Of a stretch of 64,000 bases of DNA, positions 34,889-43,341 are shown in pieces (within the stretch, counting starts at the first letter, position 1; each line of letters begins with the position of its first letter). Source of the stretch: Dawidia soli (GTDB lineage: Bacteria; Bacteroidota; Bacteroidia; Cytophagales; Cyclobacteriaceae); contig NZ_JAHESC010000001.1 in NCBI RefSeq assembly GCF_018598185.1, positions 186,001 to 250,000 of the forward strand. Direction: 5' to 3'. The position numbers and the translations under genes were made by a program. The notes under the pieces are model-generated. The model was not told where the DNA came from. It ran no database searches and was given only the letters and a program-made list of their open reading frames with translations.

Positions 34889-35494
34889 TTATTTCTGATG
34901 TCTTTTTTTCAGGACGCTCAATACGTCCTCCAGCGTATAGCCTTTGGCCGTCAGCAGTACCAGGTAGTGGTATAGCAGGTCGGATGCTTCGCCCAGGAAC
35001 AAGTCCTTATTGTTGTCCTTGGCTTCGATGATCAGCTCGACAGCTTCTTCTCCCACCTTTTGCGCTACTTTGTTAATGCCCAGGTCAAGCAGGGTGTTGG
35101 TGTACGAACCCTTGCGTGGGTTGGCCTTGCGATCGTGTATGATGGCTTCGAGCGTATGGACGTCGAAAGGATGATCGTTGGTTTCCTGAAAGCACGTGTC
35201 GGCCCCGGTGTGACAGGCCGGGCCTTTGGGCGTTGCCTTGATCAAGACGGTGTCCTGGTCGCAATCGAGCAGGATCTCGTCGAGTTCCAGGAAATTGCCG
35301 GACGTTTCGCCCTTGGTCCAGAGGCGCTGTTTGCTGCGGCTGAAGAATGTCACGCGTTTGTCGCGCACGGTTTTGTCGTAGGCTTCCTGGTTCATAAAGC
35401 CCAGCATCAGTACGCGCCGTGTGCGGGTATCCTGTACGATGCACGGCACGAGGCCGTCGAGTTTGGTAAAGTTTATAGTAGGTCGTGATGCCAT
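34889..35494 (-). CDS. hisIE: Bifunctional phosphoribosyl-AMP cyclohydrolase / phosphoribosyl-ATP pyrophosphatase
   Basis: 201 residues. HisI part (1-110): VLMLGFMNQEAYDKT, FFSRSKQRLWTKGETSGN, the metal-binding LLDCDQDTVLIK and ACHTGADTCF. HisE part (111-201): LLDLGINKVAQKVGEEAVEL with the acidic pyrophosphatase helix, and GEASDLLYHYLVLL. Catalyses steps 2 and 3 of histidine synthesis. Last gene of the his operon, 24 bp after hisF; it ends 3-12 bp from the convergent oxidoreductase gene and no terminator hairpin is seen between them. Confidence 0.96.
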   Translation of the reverse strand: MASRPTINFTKLDGLVPCIVQDTRTRRVLMLGFMNQEAYDKTVRDKRVTFFSRSKQRLWTKGETSGNFLELDEILLDCDQDTVLIKATPKGPACHTGADTCFQETNDHPFDVHTLEAIIHDRKANPRKGSYTNTLLDLGINKVAQKVGEEAVELIIEAKDNNKDLFLGEASDLLYHYLVLLTAKGYTLEDVLSVLKKRHQK

Positions 35495-35518
35495 GGTGTT
35501 GTAACGATCGTGTTGTAT

Positions 35519-36271
35519 TTACCGGATGCTGATGCCACGCTGCCGCAGATAGCCTTTGAGCTCGGGAAGTTTTACTTCGCCGAAGTGAAAGATACTGGCC
35601 GCCAGGGCAGCATCCGCTTGCCCGAGTATAAAGGTATCCATAAAATGTTCAGCTCCACCCGCGCCGCCCGAAGCGATCACCGGTATTTGCAGAAGCGCAT
35701 GCAGTTTACTTAACGCGTCGTTGGCAAAGCCGGCCTTTGTACCGTCGTGGTCCATACTGGTAAAGAGGATCTCGCCGGCACCGCGTTCCTGGCCTTCTTT
35801 GGCCCAGGTGAAAAGTTTTTTATCCGTGGCGTTCTTTCCGCCGTGGGTGTGCACCACCCAGGCGTTGTCTACTTTGCGGGCATCGATTGCCAGGACGATA
35901 CACTGGGCGCCGAAGGCCCGCGACAGCTCATCGATCAGGCCCGGGTTGCGCACGGCGGCCGAGTTGATACTGACCTTGTCGGCGCCCGCTTCGAGCAGGG
36001 GTGCCACGTCGGCAACACTGCTGATGCCACCGCCCACCGTAAAGGGAATGTTGATGTGACGGGCAATGTCGCGCACCAGCGAAGCAAAGGTCTTGCGCTG
36101 CTCGTTGGTGGCGGAGATGTCGAGAAATACCAGCTCGTCGGCGCCCTCTTGGGCATATCGCGCGCCGAGCTCCACCGGGTCACCGGCATCGCGGATGTTG
36201 ACAAAGTTGACACCTTTTACGGTACGACCGTCTTTAATGTCGAGACAGGGGATGATGCGTTTCGTAAGCAC
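35519..36271 (-). CDS. hisF: Imidazole glycerol phosphate synthase, cyclase subunit
   Basis: 250 residues, a complete (beta/alpha)8 barrel. Catalytic Asp11 in [15 protein letters not shown] and the second catalytic Asp in [10 protein letters not shown]; phosphate-binding loops [20 protein letters not shown] and VIASGGAGG. It closes the imidazole ring using ammonia from HisH, with which it forms a dimer; AICAR is released. Located 2 bp after hisA and 24 bp before hisIE. Confidence 0.97.
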
Positions 36272-36273
36272 GG

Positions 36274-36987
36274 TCAGAGCGTTGTTAATTCTGGTAAGGT
36301 AATTCGTCCTTCATAGATGGCTTTGCCGACGATGACGCCGTCGACACCGATCTGCTTCAGCTGCTGCAAGTCTTCGATACAGCTCACCCCGCCGCTGGCG
36401 ATCAGCGCCAACTGCGGAAAATTGAGCAGCAGTCTTTTGTATAGCTCAACGTTAGGGCCCGTCAGCATACCGTCGGTGCGGATGTCGGTACACGTTACAT
36501 ACTCGATGCCGAGCTGCACATAGTTGCGCAGGAATTGCGTGATCGTAATGGGCGCGTTCTCCTGCCAGCCGGCAATGGCGATGCGTTCGTCCTTTACGTC
36601 GGCGCTCAGGATGATGCGCTGTGCGCCAAAGGTTTCGATCCACCCGGCAACCTTCTCGGGTTCTTTTACCGCGATGCTGCCGAGGTTGACCTGTTGTATC
36701 CCCAAGGCAAAGAGGTCGTTTACTTCACGGTCGGTTTTGATGCCGCCGCCGAAGTCTATTTGCAGCGAGGTATTGCGGGTGAGCATTTCGGCCACGTCCC
36801 AGTTGATGACCTTACCGGCCTTGGCGCCGTCGAGGTCGACCAGGTGCAGGTATTGCAGGCCGGCGTCTTCAAACGCGCGCGCGGCGTCGAGTGGATTTTC
36901 GTGGTATATTTTCTTTTGCGCATAATCGCCCTGCGTCAGGCGTACGCATTTACCGTCAATGATGTCGATAGCGGGTATGATTCTCAC
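36274..36987 (-). CDS. hisA: 1-(5-phosphoribosyl)-5-amino-methylideneamino imidazole-4-carboxamide isomerase (ProFAR isomerase)
   Basis: 237 residues, (beta/alpha)8 barrel related to HisF. Catalytic Asp8 in [15 protein letters not shown], phosphate loops [12 protein letters not shown] and LIASGGVSC, and the [14 protein letters not shown] segment with the second acid. Converts ProFAR to PRFAR, the substrate of HisF-HisH. Gap of 13 bp to hisH upstream and 2 bp to hisF downstream. Confidence 0.97.
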
Positions 36988-37000
36988 GGAGTAGGAGGGG

Positions 37001-37588
37001 TTAGGCGTTCAAAAAGCTTTGGAGTACCAGCACGCCGGCTTCCGCCGATTTCTCGGGGTGGAACTGTACGGCATAAAAATTGTCGCGGTGCATGGCCGCG
37101 CTGAACGGCACGGTATATTCCGTGAGGGCGCTGGTGTGTGCATAGACAGGAACATAGTAGCTGTGTACGAAGTAGGCGAACTTATTCTCCAGCGCCGGGT
37201 CGAGCCAGCTGTTGGCGGTCAGCGTGAGGTTGTTCCAGCCCATGTGCGGCACCTTCTTATCGGGCTGCGGCTCGAAGCGTTTCACGGTCTCTTCAAAGAT
37301 GCCCAGGCAGGGTGTATCGTTCTCTTCCGAGTGCCTGCACAAGAGCTGCATGCCGAGGCAAATGCCCAGTACAGGTTGCCGCAAACCGCGAATGACGGCG
37401 TCGAGCTTATGGTCGCGCAAGTATTGCATGGTCGTACTGGCTTCGCCGACGCCCGGAAAGATCACCTTGTCGGCCTGTTGAATGACCTCGGCCTGGTCGG
37501 TGATTGTAAAGTCTACACCGAGCCGCTCAAGGGCAAAAGATACGGACTGGATATTGCCGGCGTTGTATTTAATGATAACAAGCTTCAT
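37001..37588 (-). CDS. hisH: Imidazole glycerol phosphate synthase, glutamine amidotransferase subunit
   Basis: 195 residues, class I glutaminase. Oxyanion strand KVIFPGVGEASTTM, nucleophilic Cys in VLGICLGMQLLCRHSEE, and the His-Glu of the triad in AVQFHPEKSAEAG. It makes ammonia that passes through the HisF barrel. Cytoplasmic. It lies 15 bp after hisB and 13 bp before hisA. Confidence 0.97.
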   Translation of the reverse strand: MKLVIIKYNAGNIQSVSFALERLGVDFTITDQAEVIQQADKVIFPGVGEASTTMQYLRDHKLDAVIRGLRQPVLGICLGMQLLCRHSEENDTPCLGIFEETVKRFEPQPDKKVPHMGWNNLTLTANSWLDPALENKFAYFVHSYYVPVYAHTSALTEYTVPFSAAMHRDNFYAVQFHPEKSAEAGVLVLQSFLNA

Positions 37589-37603
37589 GTTCGGGGCCTG
37601 TGT

Positions 37604-38719
37604 TTACAGTGTTCCTTTTGTTGACGGCAACTGGTTGCCTTCTTTCCTGATCGCCATGCGTATGGCCTTGGCAAAAGCCTTGAAGATCGCTTCGATCTTG
37701 TGGTGCTCGTTGGTTCCTTCCACGCGCACGTTCAGGTTGCTTTTCGATGTATCGGAAAACGACTTGAAAAAGTGGTGGAACATTTCCGTCGGCATCTCGC
37801 CGATCTTCTCGCGCTTGAACTCGGCATCCCACACCATCCAGGGGCGGCCACCAAAGTCGATCGCTACTTGCGCGAGGCAGTCGTCCATGGGCAGGCAGAA
37901 GCCGTAGCGGCCAATGCCGCGTTTGTCGCCGAGCGCCTGCTGGAACGCTTCGCCCAGGGCAAGGGCGGTGTCTTCAATGGTATGGTGCTCGTCGATGTGC
38001 AGGTCACCCTTCACGCGGATCTCCAGATCGATGTTGCCGTGGCGGGCCAGTTGGTCGAGCATGTGGTCGAAGAAGCCGAGGCCCGTATGGATAGACGACT
38101 TGCCGCTGCCGTCGAGGTTGATGGCTATATCGATATCGGTCTCTTTTGTCGTTCGCTTAACGGTCGCCTTACGCGGCGGCGCGGTCAGCAGCGCGTGAAT
38201 ATCTTTCCATGTGGTGGTAACAAGCGCGCAGTGCGGGGCGAGGCCCTGGCTGTCCAGCTTCTCTTGCAGGCTGCCGTTGTTTAGCAAGATGCCTTTGGCG
38301 CCCAGGTTGCGGGCGAGCTCTACGTCCGTGGCGCGGTCGCCGATCACGTAGGAGTTGGCCAGGTCGTACCCGCCGGTCAGGAACTCCGTCAGCATGCCGG
38401 TGCCGGGCTTGCGTGTGGGTTTATTTTCGCGCGCAAAGCTGCGGTCGATAAAGATCTTCGGGAAGACGATCGACTCGTTGGCAAAAGTTTGCAGCATGCG
38501 GTTGTGCGCCGGCCAGAACGTGTCTTCGGGAAAGCTGTTGGTGCCGAGGCCATCCTGGTTGGTGACCATCACCAATTCGTAGTCGCCTTCGGCGGCAATC
38601 TTTCCCAGCCAGGTAAAAACGCCGGGGTAATATTCGAGCTTCTCCAGCGAATCGATCTGCTCGTCGGGTGGTTCGAGTATCAGCGTGCCGTCGCGGTCTA
38701 TAAACAATACTTTTTTCAT
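37604..38719 (-). CDS. hisB: Bifunctional histidinol-phosphatase / imidazoleglycerol-phosphate dehydratase
   Basis: 371 residues, the fused two-domain form. The N-terminal HAD phosphatase (1-165) has [17 protein letters not shown] with the Asp nucleophile, [13 protein letters not shown] and [13 protein letters not shown]. The C-terminal dehydratase (about 180-371) has the manganese-binding motifs [29 protein letters not shown] and [15 protein letters not shown]. It catalyses the dehydratase and phosphatase steps. Its ATG overlaps the hisC stop by 4 bp. Confidence 0.97.
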
Positions 38720-39765
38720 AATTCTTCCAGGGCGTTGATGAGGCGGTCGTTTTCTCCGGCGGTACCGATGGTAATGCGCAAACAGTTATAGCATAATACC
38801 ACGCGCGAGCGGTCACGTACGATGATCTTTTGGTCGAGCAGGTATTTATACGTAGCCGGGGCATCCTGCACACGCACCAGCACAAAGTTGCTGTCGGTGG
38901 GGAACACTTTCTCGGTAATGCGCAACTTCTCCAGGGCTTTGATCACCCGGGTGCGTTGTTGTACGATCTGCTTTACCGCGTCTTCCATCACGTGGCGGTT
39001 CTCGATGGCATCGAGGGCCAGCTCTTGTGTGCGGATGTTGACGTTGTACGGATACTTGATCTTATTGAGCACGTTGATGATCGCTTCCGACGCAAAGCAC
39101 ATACCGAGGCGCAAGCCCGCAAGGCCCCAGGCCTTGGAAAATGTTTGCAGCACGACCAGGTTGGGATATTTGTCGAGCTCCTGCAGGAAGCTTTTGCCTT
39201 TGGCAAAGTCGATGTAGGCTTCGTCGATCACCACCAATCCGTAAAAGCGCTTCAATACCTCCAGGATCTTGTCGCGGCTCAGCAGATTGCCCGTGGGGTT
39301 GTTGGGACTGCAGAGGAAGATCACCTTGGTGGTGGCGTCAAACGTTTTAGGAAAAGCGTCCAGGTCGAGGTCGAAGTCGGGTGTGAGCAATACCTGCTGC
39401 ACGTTCACGGCGTTCACTTCGGCACATACCGAGTACATGCCGTACGTGGGCTCGGTAATGAGGATCGAATCCTGGTTGGGCTCGCAGAACGCGCGGATGA
39501 TGAGGTCGATGGCCTCGTCGCTGCCGTTGCCCAGGAAGATCTGCTCGGGACGGACTTCTCGGACAGCGGCCAGCTCTTCTTTCACACGCCGTTGCAATGG
39601 GTCGGGGTACCGGTTGTAGGGCGACGGGTAGGGGTTTTCGTTGGCGTCCAGGTATATATCGGCTTCGCCCTTAAACTCGTCGCGGGCCGAGGAATAGGGT
39701 TTCATGGTCAGAATGTTCTTCCGCACCAGGGAGTTGATATCGGGAAATGCTTTTTTCTTACTCAT
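38716..39765 (-). CDS. hisC: Histidinol-phosphate aminotransferase (biosynthetic)
   Basis: 349 residues, cytoplasmic. [20 protein letters not shown] at the substrate entrance, [40 protein letters not shown] and [16 protein letters not shown] with the PLP lysine. Transfers the amino group from glutamate to imidazole acetol-phosphate. Unlike the HisC-like protein at 535-1719 it has no signal peptide. 8 bp after hisD and overlapping hisB by 4 bp. Confidence 0.97.
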
Positions 39766-39773
39766 ACAGTAGG

Positions 39774-41066
39774 TCAGGGGTTGGAGGCCAGTTTGTCCAG
39801 GCGTACACGGATGGCCATTTTGTGTGCTTCCAGTTGCTCGGCTTCGGCCATGCGCTCGACCACGGGGCCGAGGGCGCGGATGCCGGCTGCGCTTACTTCC
39901 TGGAAGGTGATATACTTCATAAAGCTTTCGAGCGACACGCCGGCAAAGGCGCGCGCAAAGCCATTGGTCGGCAGGGTGTGGTTGGTGCCGGAGGCATAGT
40001 CGCCCATGGCCTCGGGGGTATAGTTGCCAATGAACACCGAGCCGGCATTGATCACCGCGCCGGCTACGGCGTCGGCCCGTGCAATGTTGAGAATGAGGTG
40101 CTCGGGCGCATAGGTGTTGACGAAGTCGAGGGCCTGCTGGCGGTCGGCCAGCACCACGGCCCGGCTGTTGGCCAGCGCCTTGCGGGCGATGTCGCGGCGG
40201 GGCAGTTGGGTCAGTTGCCTTTCTATTTCAGCTTCGACCGGCGCGAGCAGACGGGCGTCGTTCAGTACGAGCATCACCTGGCTGTCTTCGCCGTGTTCGG
40301 CTTGCGAAAGCAGGTCTGCGGCCACGAAGGCCGGCTCGGCGGTTTCGTCGGCCATGACCAGTACTTCCGAAGGGCCGGCGGGCATGTCGATGGCCAGTCC
40401 TTCTTCCTGCACCAGCTGTTTGGCTTTGGTAACGTACTGGTTTCCGGGACCGAAGATCTTATATACCTTCGGTACGCTCGGCGTGCCGTAGGCCATGGCG
40501 GCGATGGCTTGTGCACCGCCTACCTTGCAGATGCGTTTAATGCCGACGTGCGCGGCCGCAAAGAGTATGGCCGGGTTGATGGCACCGGTCTTGTCCGGCG
40601 GCGAGCAAAGTACTATTTCGCGGCAGCCGGCCAGGCGCGCCGGGATGCCCAGCATCAGTACCGTCGAGAACAGCGGTGCCGATCCGCCCGGTATATAGAT
40701 GCCCACCTTGTCGATGGCGACACCCTTGCGCCAGCAGTGTACCCCCGGCGTGGTCTCGACCTTCAACACATCGCGGCGTTGGGCGGCGTGGAATTTTTCA
40801 ATATTGGCGGCGGCCGTGCGGATAGCGTCTTTCAGGGCTTCGGGCAGTGCGCGGCCGGCGGCTTCGATCTCGGCCGCACCAACCTCCAGGGATGCGAGCT
40901 GTACCTTGTCATATTGGGCTGTCAGCTCGAGCAGCGCTTCGTCGCCGGATTTACGCACGCGGTTCAATACGTTGCGTACGGAGCTTTCCAGGAACTCGAG
41001 CTCGAGCTGAGGACGCTGGCAAAGCTCGGCCCAGGTGTCGGGAGTGGGGTTGGTATACGTCTTCAT
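39774..41066 (-). CDS. hisD: Histidinol dehydrogenase
   Basis: 430 residues. Conserved segments include VGIYIPGGSAPLFSTVLMLG, FGPGNQYVTKAKQLV, DMPAGPSEVLVMAD, LLSQAEHGEDSQVM and YAPEHLILN, with the zinc-site and catalytic His/Glu residues, and the GSVFIGNYTPEAMGDYASGT loop. It oxidises L-histidinol to histidine in two NAD-dependent steps. Its ATG overlaps the hisG stop by 4 bp (ATGA). Confidence 0.97.
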   Translation of the reverse strand: MKTYTNPTPDTWAELCQRPQLELEFLESSVRNVLNRVRKSGDEALLELTAQYDKVQLASLEVGAAEIEAAGRALPEALKDAIRTAAANIEKFHAAQRRDVLKVETTPGVHCWRKGVAIDKVGIYIPGGSAPLFSTVLMLGIPARLAGCREIVLCSPPDKTGAINPAILFAAAHVGIKRICKVGGAQAIAAMAYGTPSVPKVYKIFGPGNQYVTKAKQLVQEEGLAIDMPAGPSEVLVMADETAEPAFVAADLLSQAEHGEDSQVMLVLNDARLLAPVEAEIERQLTQLPRRDIARKALANSRAVVLADRQQALDFVNTYAPEHLILNIARADAVAGAVINAGSVFIGNYTPEAMGDYASGTNHTLPTNGFARAFAGVSLESFMKYITFQEVSAAGIRALGPVVERMAEAEQLEAHKMAIRVRLDKLASNP

Positions 41067-41923
41067 ACAATCATCTTTTCGATCGGTACCACCAAGATGC
41101 CTTCGGCGCCAAACTCGCGCAGTTGGTCGATCCGCTCCCAGAAATCATTTTCGTCTACGACGGAATGCAGCGAGCTCCAGCCCGCACGCGTTAGCGGAAT
41201 GATGGTAGGGCTCTTCATGCCCGGTATCACCTGGGTGATCTTTTCGATCGACTCGTTGGGGCAGTTCAATAATATATATTTGCTGTTCTTGGCTTTCTTC
41301 ACCGCTTCGATGCGGAACAACAGCTTGTCGAGGATCTTTTGTTTTTCGGGCGACAGCGTCGGGCTCGCGATGATCACCGCTTCGGACTGCATGACGATCT
41401 CCACTTCCTGCAGACCGTTGCTGAGCAGCGTGCTGCCCGTGCTGACGATATCGCAGATGGCGTCGGCCAGGCCGATGCCCGGTGCAATTTCTACCGAGCC
41501 GCTGATCTCATGAATGCCCGCTTCCACGTTGTGCTTGGCCAGGAAGCCTTTGACGATGTTGGGGTAGGAGGTAGCGATGTTTTTGCCTTGCAGCCACTGC
41601 ACGCCGGTATAATTTTCGCCCCGGGGCACCGCCATCGATAAGCGGCATTTGGAAAAGTCCAGACGCTTGATCAGGCGATTGTCTTTTTTCTTTTCGGCAA
41701 ATACATTCTCGCCGACGATGCCGATGTCGGCCACCTGGTCTTCGACATATTGCGGAATGTCGTCGTCGCGGAGAAAGAGTACCTCTACCGGGAAGTTACG
41801 AGCCTGCGTTTTCAGCTGGTCTTTGCCGTTGCTGATGGAGAGGCCGCTCTCTTTGAGCAGCTCCAGCGAGCCTTCTTGCAGGCGTCCGGATTTTTGAATG
41901 GCGATGCGAAGTAGCGTATTCAT
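41063..41923 (-). CDS. hisG: ATP phosphoribosyltransferase, long form
   Basis: 286 residues from MNTLLRIAIQKSGRL; ten more codons upstream overlap the attenuator stem and are rejected. The catalytic part has QKSGRLQEGSLELLKESG, VADIGIVGENVF, EIAPGIGLADAICDIVSTGSTL with the PRPP loop; residues about 210-286 form the HisG C-terminal ACT-like domain (VIPGMKSPTIIPL, EGILVVPIEKM) that allows histidine feedback inhibition. It catalyses the first committed step. Expression should also be controlled by the attenuator directly upstream. Confidence 0.96.
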   Translation of the reverse strand: MNTLLRIAIQKSGRLQEGSLELLKESGLSISNGKDQLKTQARNFPVEVLFLRDDDIPQYVEDQVADIGIVGENVFAEKKKDNRLIKRLDFSKCRLSMAVPRGENYTGVQWLQGKNIATSYPNIVKGFLAKHNVEAGIHEISGSVEIAPGIGLADAICDIVSTGSTLLSNGLQEVEIVMQSEAVIIASPTLSPEKQKILDKLLFRIEAVKKAKNSKYILLNCPNESIEKITQVIPGMKSPTIIPLTRAGWSSLHSVVDENDFWERIDQLREFGAEGILVVPIEKMIV

Positions 41924-41931
41924 ACGTGTTA

Positions 41932-41968
41932 GTAAATAAAAAAGGCTTGTCACATCGTGACAAGCCTT
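41932..41968 (-). terminator. Attenuator terminator of the his operon
   Basis: Minus-strand AAGGCTTGTCAC-GAT-GTGACAAGCCTT, a perfect 12-bp stem with a 3-base loop, followed by TTTTTTATTT. It lies between the leader peptide stop (41995) and the hisG start (41923), 8 bp before hisG, the position of a classical attenuator. Confidence 0.92.
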
Positions 41969-41994
41969 GTATCTTTTGTATTCTTAGATAATCA

Positions 41995-42069
41995 CTAATA
42001 GGCCATGCCACGCACCGTGTGGAGTACATGATGGTGGTGGTGGAAGCCGATGGTGATCGTGTTAATCAT
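41995..42069 (-). CDS. hisL: Histidine operon leader peptide, 24 residues
   Basis: From the ATG at 42069 the frame reads MINTITIG, then FHHHHHVLH, then TVRGMAY and TAG at 41995-41997. Codons 10-14 are five consecutive His (CAC CAC CAC CAT CAT) and codon 17 is a sixth. Together with the terminator stem 26 bp later and hisG after it, this is the expected layout of a ribosome-sensing his leader. The peptide itself is unlikely to have another function. Gene name by analogy to enterobacterial hisL. Confidence 0.92.
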   Translation of the reverse strand: MINTITIGFHHHHHVLHTVRGMAY

Positions 42070-42173
42070 AATATTGTGATGCGAATAACACGAATAGAGT
42101 TGATAAGTCAAAGCCGTGCCGCAAATTTTTTGAGCCTTACAAGTGTTGTATGCGTATACAGCGTCCTGGCAAA

Positions 42174-42195: not shown

Positions 42196-42315
42196 TCTTC
42201 CTGGTGCTTGTTTGGTAGCCCCATGGGCAGGTTTGTCCGCTGGCCGGTTGGCTGAAGTTTACAGATTTTGATTAACATTGGCGACTGCTACAAAGAGCAG
42301 TCTATATTAGAGACT

Positions 42316-43341
42316 ATGAGACAGTTTGTTTGGTGTGTTTGGGGAGTTTGGTTACTGGCAGGGTGCAGCGACAGCCGCGAGACGCGCATGCAGCGGCACC
42401 TGCTGCAGGGCAACGAGATGGTGACGCTGCAGAACATGGAAGAGGCCGAACGTCATTTTCGCGAGGCTGTCAAATTAGATTCGTGTTATGCCGATGCCTG
42501 GAATAACCTGGGCAGCCTGTATTACCAACAACGAAAATATACCGAAGCGCTCGACGCCTATGATGAGGCGCTGCGCTGCCGTCCGGGCTACTGGGAGGCA
42601 TACCTGAACCGAGCCAACGCGGCCTATGAAGTGCAGGAATATTATCGCGCGTTAGAAGATCTGTCGCATGTCGAGCGGGTAAAGCCCGACACCGTGGCAC
42701 TACACGTCGTACGGGGATTGATCTATACCAAGTTGCGGAAGTTCGATGACGCCATGAGGTCGTTCCGGCGTGCGCGTGCGCTCGATGCGCAGGATGTAGA
42801 GATCCAGGTGAACCTCGGCACGTTGTATTACTACAAGAAAGAATATGACAGCGCCGGCCAGATCTTTGATGCCGTGCTGGCAGTAAAACCCCAGGAAGCC
42901 AACGTCTTCAACGCCCAGGCCATGGTGGCCGCCGACCAGGGCCGCTACGACGAAGCCAGGGGATTGGTGGAGAAAGCCCTGCGGCTGAAGGCTGACGACG
43001 CCTATTTTCTCAACAACCGCGGCTATATATTGCTCATGACCGGCGATCTCGAAGCCGGCCGCGCCGACATCGACGCCAGCATCGGCATCGACCCCTATAA
43101 CGGCTGGGCCTATCGCAACAAAGGCATTTACTTCCTGCTTAAAAAGCAACCCGCCGACGCATTACGGTTGCTGGAGCGGGCGGTGAAAGCCGATCCCTTC
43201 ATCGAAAAGGTGCACTATTATTTAGGCGAAGCCTATCACCAACAAGGCAACACCGGCGCTGCGTGCAAAGAATACAGGCAGGCGGCCGAACGCGGTGAAT
43301 TGCCAGGAGGTACGCTGCCGGATTACTGTAAGACGAAATGA
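42316..43341 (+). CDS. TPR-repeat lipoprotein
   Basis: 341 residues from MRQFVWCVWGVWLLAGC, a lipoprotein signal with Cys17; the 16 residues upstream in frame are not used. Seven or more TPR units follow: EEAERHFREAVKLDSCYADA, AWNNLGSLYYQQRKYTEALD, IQVNLGTLYYYKKEYDSAGQ, FLNNRGYILLMTGDLEAGRA, WAYRNKGIYFLLKKQPADAL, VHYYLGEAYHQQGNTGAACK. An assembly or scaffold role at a membrane is likely; partners unknown. Its stop overlaps the Nudix start (ATGA), so the two are coupled. Confidence 0.9.
   Translation: MRQFVWCVWGVWLLAGCSDSRETRMQRHLLQGNEMVTLQNMEEAERHFREAVKLDSCYADAWNNLGSLYYQQRKYTEALDAYDEALRCRPGYWEAYLNRANAAYEVQEYYRALEDLSHVERVKPDTVALHVVRGLIYTKLRKFDDAMRSFRRARALDAQDVEIQVNLGTLYYYKKEYDSAGQIFDAVLAVKPQEANVFNAQAMVAADQGRYDEARGLVEKALRLKADDAYFLNNRGYILLMTGDLEAGRADIDASIGIDPYNGWAYRNKGIYFLLKKQPADALRLLERAVKADPFIEKVHYYLGEAYHQQGNTGAACKEYRQAAERGELPGGTLPDYCKTK

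Follow-up and report, generated by a model that had tools for sequence, protein, structure and literature searches.

The region upstream of hisG in Dawidia soli, read on the minus strand of the 64,000-nt stretch of DNA analysed here (the window), very probably controls the his operon by ribosome-mediated transcription attenuation, in which, most likely, a shortage of histidine activates the pathway through a His-rich mini-gene and an RNA stop switch. The operon comprises eight genes in the order hisGDCBHAF-IE. We establish here the parts of the element, their positions (Table 1), their conservation and the mutually exclusive pairing between them.

Table 1. Features of the his leader region and operon (positions in the window), and leader sets of relatives referred to in the text.
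Feature	Positions	Strand	Details
Candidate promoter	42082..42112	-	-33-like TTTG at 42112..42109, 19 nt, weak -7-like GTTATTCG
Leader peptide ORF	41995..42069	-	MINTITIGFHHHHHVLHTVRGMAY*; 24 codons, His at codons 10-14 and 17 (translation)
1:2 (protector) hairpin	42008..42040	-	His-codon bases 42040..42033 with 42016..42008; MFE structure
Region 2	42000..42012	-	Alternative partners are the terminator 5' arm (antiterminator) and, in part, the His-codon region
Antiterminator inner 5-bp stem	41970..41990	-	41990..41986 with 41974..41970; fold of 42017..41955
Intrinsic terminator	41938..41968	-	12-bp stem 41968..41957 / 41953..41942, loop GAT, U-run
hisG, ATP phosphoribosyltransferase, first structural gene	41063..41923	-	TIGR00070, E 7.6e-57; TIGR03455
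hisD, hisC, hisB (bifunctional), hisH, hisA, hisF, hisIE	34889..41066	-	NCBIfam matches
Stop-codon-in-loop leaders			his: L017, L023, L029, L041, L044, L144 (other Cytophagales); thrA: L247-L251
Family f34 His leaders			L175-L182, L185, L186, L188-L193; start mostly GTG; no strong terminator detected

Translation of 42069..41995 on the minus strand gave the leader frame just as the first-pass annotation had read it, in both its length and the placement of its His codons; its stop codon (41997..41995) lies 71 nt from the hisG start. When all six frames of the 64-kb window were considered, a density of at least five His in eight codons was found at the leader site only, and the whole 7.48-Mb genome, read in any frame, has runs of five His codons at 6 places, the leader included. 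As expected of a ribosome-mediated attenuator, this putative coding sequence is short and clusters codons for the operon's own amino acid. A chance run of His is ruled out by this window-wide uniqueness together with shuffled hisG upstream regions, which reach four His of eight codons in 2/545 cases and five in none (0/545).

An alignment (A1) was assembled from the window and 55 named Cytophagales loci picked for having both leader and terminator, leaving out one duplicate (L087) and two loci that did not qualify (L078 and L100). The leader ATG column is kept in 52 of these 56 leaders, and all 52 conserved ATGs open an in-frame His leader (17-25 codons, at least 3 His). Across the five His codons, the letters vary at 80/279 third positions, 11/278 first positions and 30/278 second positions, and this third-position variation shows that the protein reading is conserved. 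Upstream of its hisG, L100 has a same-family leader reduced to two adjacent His (NIFRQHHATS) and a retained terminator, perhaps a decayed sensor.

The first-pass annotation had staked its reading on His-rich frames preceding hisG in related genomes, and such frames are indeed present: leader and terminator were found in 7/7 same-genus genomes (a set that includes Ohtaekwangia koreensis, order Cytophagales), and at least four His in eight codons in 71 of 80 named loci, two of the nine misses having less than 100 nt of upstream DNA. For the phylum as a whole, 154 of 178 genomes yielded a hisG, and the upstream regions of 110 of the 154 (30 + 80 loci, over-represented genera being thinned by hand) were examined along with 30 of the 32 matches from another search. 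Compilation of the resulting 137 upstream regions (109 with a closer HisG, 28 with a distant one) revealed that (i) where HisG identity is at least 43%, 88/109 regions reach at least four His in eight codons, 72/109 reach at least five, and 21/109 have no dense His frame, and (ii) where identity is at most 35%, a His-dense frame lies upstream in 0/28. Other residues also reach four of eight in the 109 real regions (Ile 69/109, Ser 53/109, Leu 42/109), the shuffle baseline having been computed for His only, so that support for the His result comes from its own shuffles and from the 0/28 of the distant HisG group. As a negative control, the trpE, ilvD, pheA and thrA upstream regions of the genus were scanned; 2/25 reach at least four His of eight, and both come from reading the Thr/Ile run of thrA leaders out of frame. 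In some relatives at the level of the order (L022, L036 and L144 among them), the His-rich frames lie more than 150 nt upstream of hisG and are separated from it by long gaps or additional hairpins.

No intrinsic terminator could be detected for the His leaders of several relatives, as might be expected if the peptide acted mainly on hisG translation or RNA decay, through re-initiation, and not on termination; re-initiation has been proposed where leader genes lie 10-14 bp from the gene, in Bacteroidetes among others (PMC4833913, which treats leader genes in general). In the window, however, the 71 nt between leader stop and hisG hold a strong terminator, and we consider this alternative very unlikely.

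That terminator has the letters AAGGCTTGTCAC-GAT-GTGACAAGCCTT (41968..41942, then TTTTATTT) and folds at -18.4 kcal/mol; with 12/12 pairs, the perfect stem and U-run previously claimed between leader and hisG are borne out. Its 5' arm has a second partner in region 2, 42012..42000 pairing with 41967..41956 through 12 pairs and one bulge (the 2:3 pairing; -17.1 kcal/mol, equalled by 0/100 shuffles). This is the pairing of 42000-42011 with 41957-41967 noted earlier, except that each strand is one base longer at one side. When the terminator 3' arm is left out of the fold, the antiterminator hairpin has an energy of -16.4 kcal/mol. Region 2 is in turn claimed, in part, by the His-codon region, in a duplex of -22.5 kcal/mol that 2/60 shuffles equal; the earlier list of structures, right as to antiterminator and terminator, had omitted this 1:2 hairpin. 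The fold of 41920-42080 beats 200/200 dinucleotide shuffles (z -3.71). The 1:2, 2:3 and 3:4 pairings are predicted to be mutually exclusive, as in a ribosome-mediated attenuator, and the predicted protector hairpin and a terminator between leader ORF and hisG are likewise features that such an attenuator would have.

The effect of a ribosome was modelled with a footprint extending 15 nt behind the A-site codon and 12 nt ahead of it, dimensions that follow a rule of thumb. With nascent RNA ending at 41954, the 2:3 hairpin is in the best fold when the ribosome stands at codon 10, 12 or 14 (-18 to -21 kcal/mol), is only partly left at codon 17, where the ribosome masks part of region 2, and is blocked at the stop codon. 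The first-pass annotation had proposed folding the region and comparing both structures. Both alternatives were recovered in this way, while the full-length RNA at equilibrium prefers the terminator, with a probability of about 0.98 at every ribosome position tried. Equilibrium folds of the full leader, computed with the ribosome footprints masked, thus do not reveal the switch, and since that equilibrium always favours the terminator, the proposed switch must be kinetic.

Within A1, 99.1% of the cells of the terminator helix are paired, a percentage partly built in because the rows were chosen for a terminator, and 8/10 pairs show changes on both sides, a count that 0/500 shuffles reach. For the 2:3 helix, 83.2% of cells are paired, against 36-53% when the helix is slid; 3 pairs changed on both sides, which 157/500 shuffles reach, and slid helices equal the true one on this count. 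Close-clade covariation thus appears strong for the terminator and weak for the antiterminator. Stronger support for the 2:3 pairing comes from matching between clades: the terminator 5' arm begins GGCTTG in Cytophagales, and reads CCGTTTGAG in Flavobacteria-like leaders and ACCCCGGC in another group, and region 2 changes to match these clade-specific letters. Among 117 leaders that combine a His-dense frame with a terminator that could be detected, seven duplicates having first been removed, the own 2:3 pairing beats shuffled region 2 (p<=0.05) in 98; as near-duplicates remain among them (101 distinct region-2 starts), the set was thinned, giving 50/63. A swap test was modest, the own pairing standing at the median 13th percentile (mean 17th) of swapped pairings. 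The 1:2 pairing beats shuffles in 48/65 Cytophagales-like leaders, 13/20 leaders of the third arm type and 13/32 Flavobacteria-like leaders. Taken with its weak close-clade covariation, the antiterminator is nevertheless predicted and conserved as a mutually exclusive structure that a stalled ribosome would permit.

Intrinsic terminators are common, and this hairpin is equally perfect when read on the plus strand, as would suit a constitutive terminator, or part of another transcript, beside an incidental His run. However, the far-side neighbour (42268..43341, plus strand) is divergent from the his operon, so that no minus-strand gene ends at the hairpin, and leader, terminator and competing pairing co-occur phylum-wide; we give this explanation slightly less credence even than re-initiation. 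As the terminator of the divergent gene, the hairpin is ruled out by the gene's orientation and by the plus strand, where no T-run follows directly 3' of it.

A structured leader with a terminator ahead of a biosynthetic operon would in general also suit a T-box or riboswitch, tRNA-sensing or ligand-binding, with the peptide secondary; this is about as improbable as a constitutive terminator, given that the His codons vary at third positions with the protein reading preserved, that Rfam 15 at gathering thresholds yielded no family in the window and only a tRNA in the loci of 20 relatives, hence no T-box or riboswitch family in either, and that the best sub-threshold match is Thr_leader, itself a leader-peptide attenuator.

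For transcription attenuation, the preferred reading, we infer where the promoter lies, that the peptide is translated, that ribosome and polymerase are coupled, and that the system responds to histidine. RNA polymerase would start near the leader ATG, and a trailing ribosome would translate the His-rich peptide. With charged His-tRNA scarce, the ribosome would stall at His codons 10-14 and cover the His-codon region, leaving region 2 free to pair with the emerging terminator 5' arm; the terminator would be defeated and hisGDCBHAF-IE transcribed. With ample His-tRNA, the ribosome would reach the stop codon and cover region 2, and the terminator would form. If no translation took place, the 1:2 hairpin would sequester region 2, with termination likewise. 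The first-pass annotation had supposed that enterobacterial-type stalling logic applies here; the recurrence of leader, terminator and competing pairing supports it, the dynamics being what we infer.

Bacteroidota promoters have a -33 element besides the -7 box. Among 116 leaders, TT[TC]G is found upstream of the leader ATG at 3-18 nt in 73 and at 33-48 nt in 77, and in the intervening and more distal windows in 29 and 20, respectively, a placement that fits the phylum's -33/-7 promoter. In the window, the -7-like GTTATTCG occupies 42089..42082, 12 nt ahead of the leader ATG, and is a weak match to TAnnTTTG, the -7 element of the phylum (PMC9723704). A sigma-70 promoter scan of the minus strand at the leader gave no match, as expected since the phylum uses another promoter type.

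Other amino-acid operons of the genus have leaders too. Upstream of trpE, a leader with WWW and a terminator was found in 7/7 same-genus genomes, as was a leader with Phe/Tyr runs and a terminator upstream of pheA; thrA is preceded by a leader with Thr/Ile runs in 5/5 same-genus loci, with no intrinsic terminator detected, and no leader was found upstream of ilvD in the 6 same-genus loci searched (L234 could not be placed). In the genome of the window itself, the corresponding leaders are L225 (trpE; WWW), L244 (pheA; FFYFYYYFF) and L250 (thrA; a Thr/Ile run). A different hairpin, whose loop contains the stop codon and which lacks a U-run, is present in six his leaders with a terminal HHSS and in the five thrA leaders (Table 1). 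It beats shuffles (z below -1.64) in 5/6 HHSS his leaders and 5/5 thrA leaders, and the same test gave 3/46 for terminator-type leaders, 2/5 for family f16 and 2/18 for f34/f32, the 'other' group of this test including six duplicate-list loci that do have terminators. The HHSS his and thrA leaders may represent a possible second attenuator layout. In the f34 family, the start codon lies 4-5 nt downstream of an exact TAnnTTTG in 8/16 leaders (2/1600 shuffles) and of a looser -7 box in 14/16 (53/1600 shuffles), and the start codons so placed open frames with 4-11 His; the spacing suggests that the f34 leader mRNA may begin on its own start codon (leaderless).

Overall, we entertain, tentatively and as rather less than an even chance, that leader-peptide control of amino-acid operons in Bacteroidota is old and phylum-wide, on mRNAs that start at or near the start codon without Shine-Dalgarno sequences, and in at least two layouts, one with terminator and antiterminator and the other terminator-less with the stop codon in a loop (HHSS his, thrA). 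Classic attenuation requires a ribosome close behind RNA polymerase, and an attenuator conserved across much of Bacteroidota therefore implies ribosome-polymerase coupling over at least the first 150 nt of these transcripts. Coupling would thus be implied in a phylum without Shine-Dalgarno use (PMC9723704), for which the leaders would offer simple reporters. The findings also give an annotation rule, to look for leader peptides and premature terminators before Bacteroidota his, trp, phe and thr genes, a phylum in which Rfam 15 had no matching model for the window or the 20 relatives' loci scanned.

Attenuation is a classic mechanism, yet it is hardly described in this large bacterial group where it is conserved. 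In a full-text search of the literature, covering the main texts of papers outside subscription, PMC9723704 was the one relevant paper on the phylum. It reports, for Flavobacterium psychrophilum, strong clues to attenuation by leader peptides upstream of amino-acid operons, as well as 5' elements of hisG and pheA that are conserved in Flavobacteriaceae and have no Rfam hits. The first-pass remark that many biosynthetic operons of the phylum are not annotated with leader peptides is qualified by these clues, and together with the conserved hisG element they place the window's attenuator among a known kind. The F. psychrophilum element shares phylum and gene with ours and belongs to a different class; the account in the section on 5' elements of PMC9723704 gives no peptide, pairing scheme or survey beyond Flavobacteriaceae. 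Among our own loci, Flavobacteriaceae relatives such as Mesonia (L126-L130) have His leaders with terminators. In Bacteroides thetaiotaomicron, leader-like short ORFs have been described, his genes not being among them in the available text of PMC7366714.

As to catalogued families, the Rfam His_leader model (presumably RF00514) was absent from the window at gathering and up to E 10, and from the 20 relatives. Membership of any Rfam family is ruled out, the best match in the window being Thr_leader (RF00506) at 17.1 bits against a gathering threshold of 55 (E 1.1); the likeness, aligned end to end, is one of leader-peptide attenuator layout. The his attenuator of E. coli and Salmonella differs from the window's element in the letters of peptide and RNA, ours having no Rfam match, and in that transcription of the window's leader is predicted to start no more than about 10 nt from the ATG. 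The two have in common a short His-rich peptide, the 1:2, 2:3 and 3:4 alternatives, a terminator with a U-run, and hisG as the first gene.
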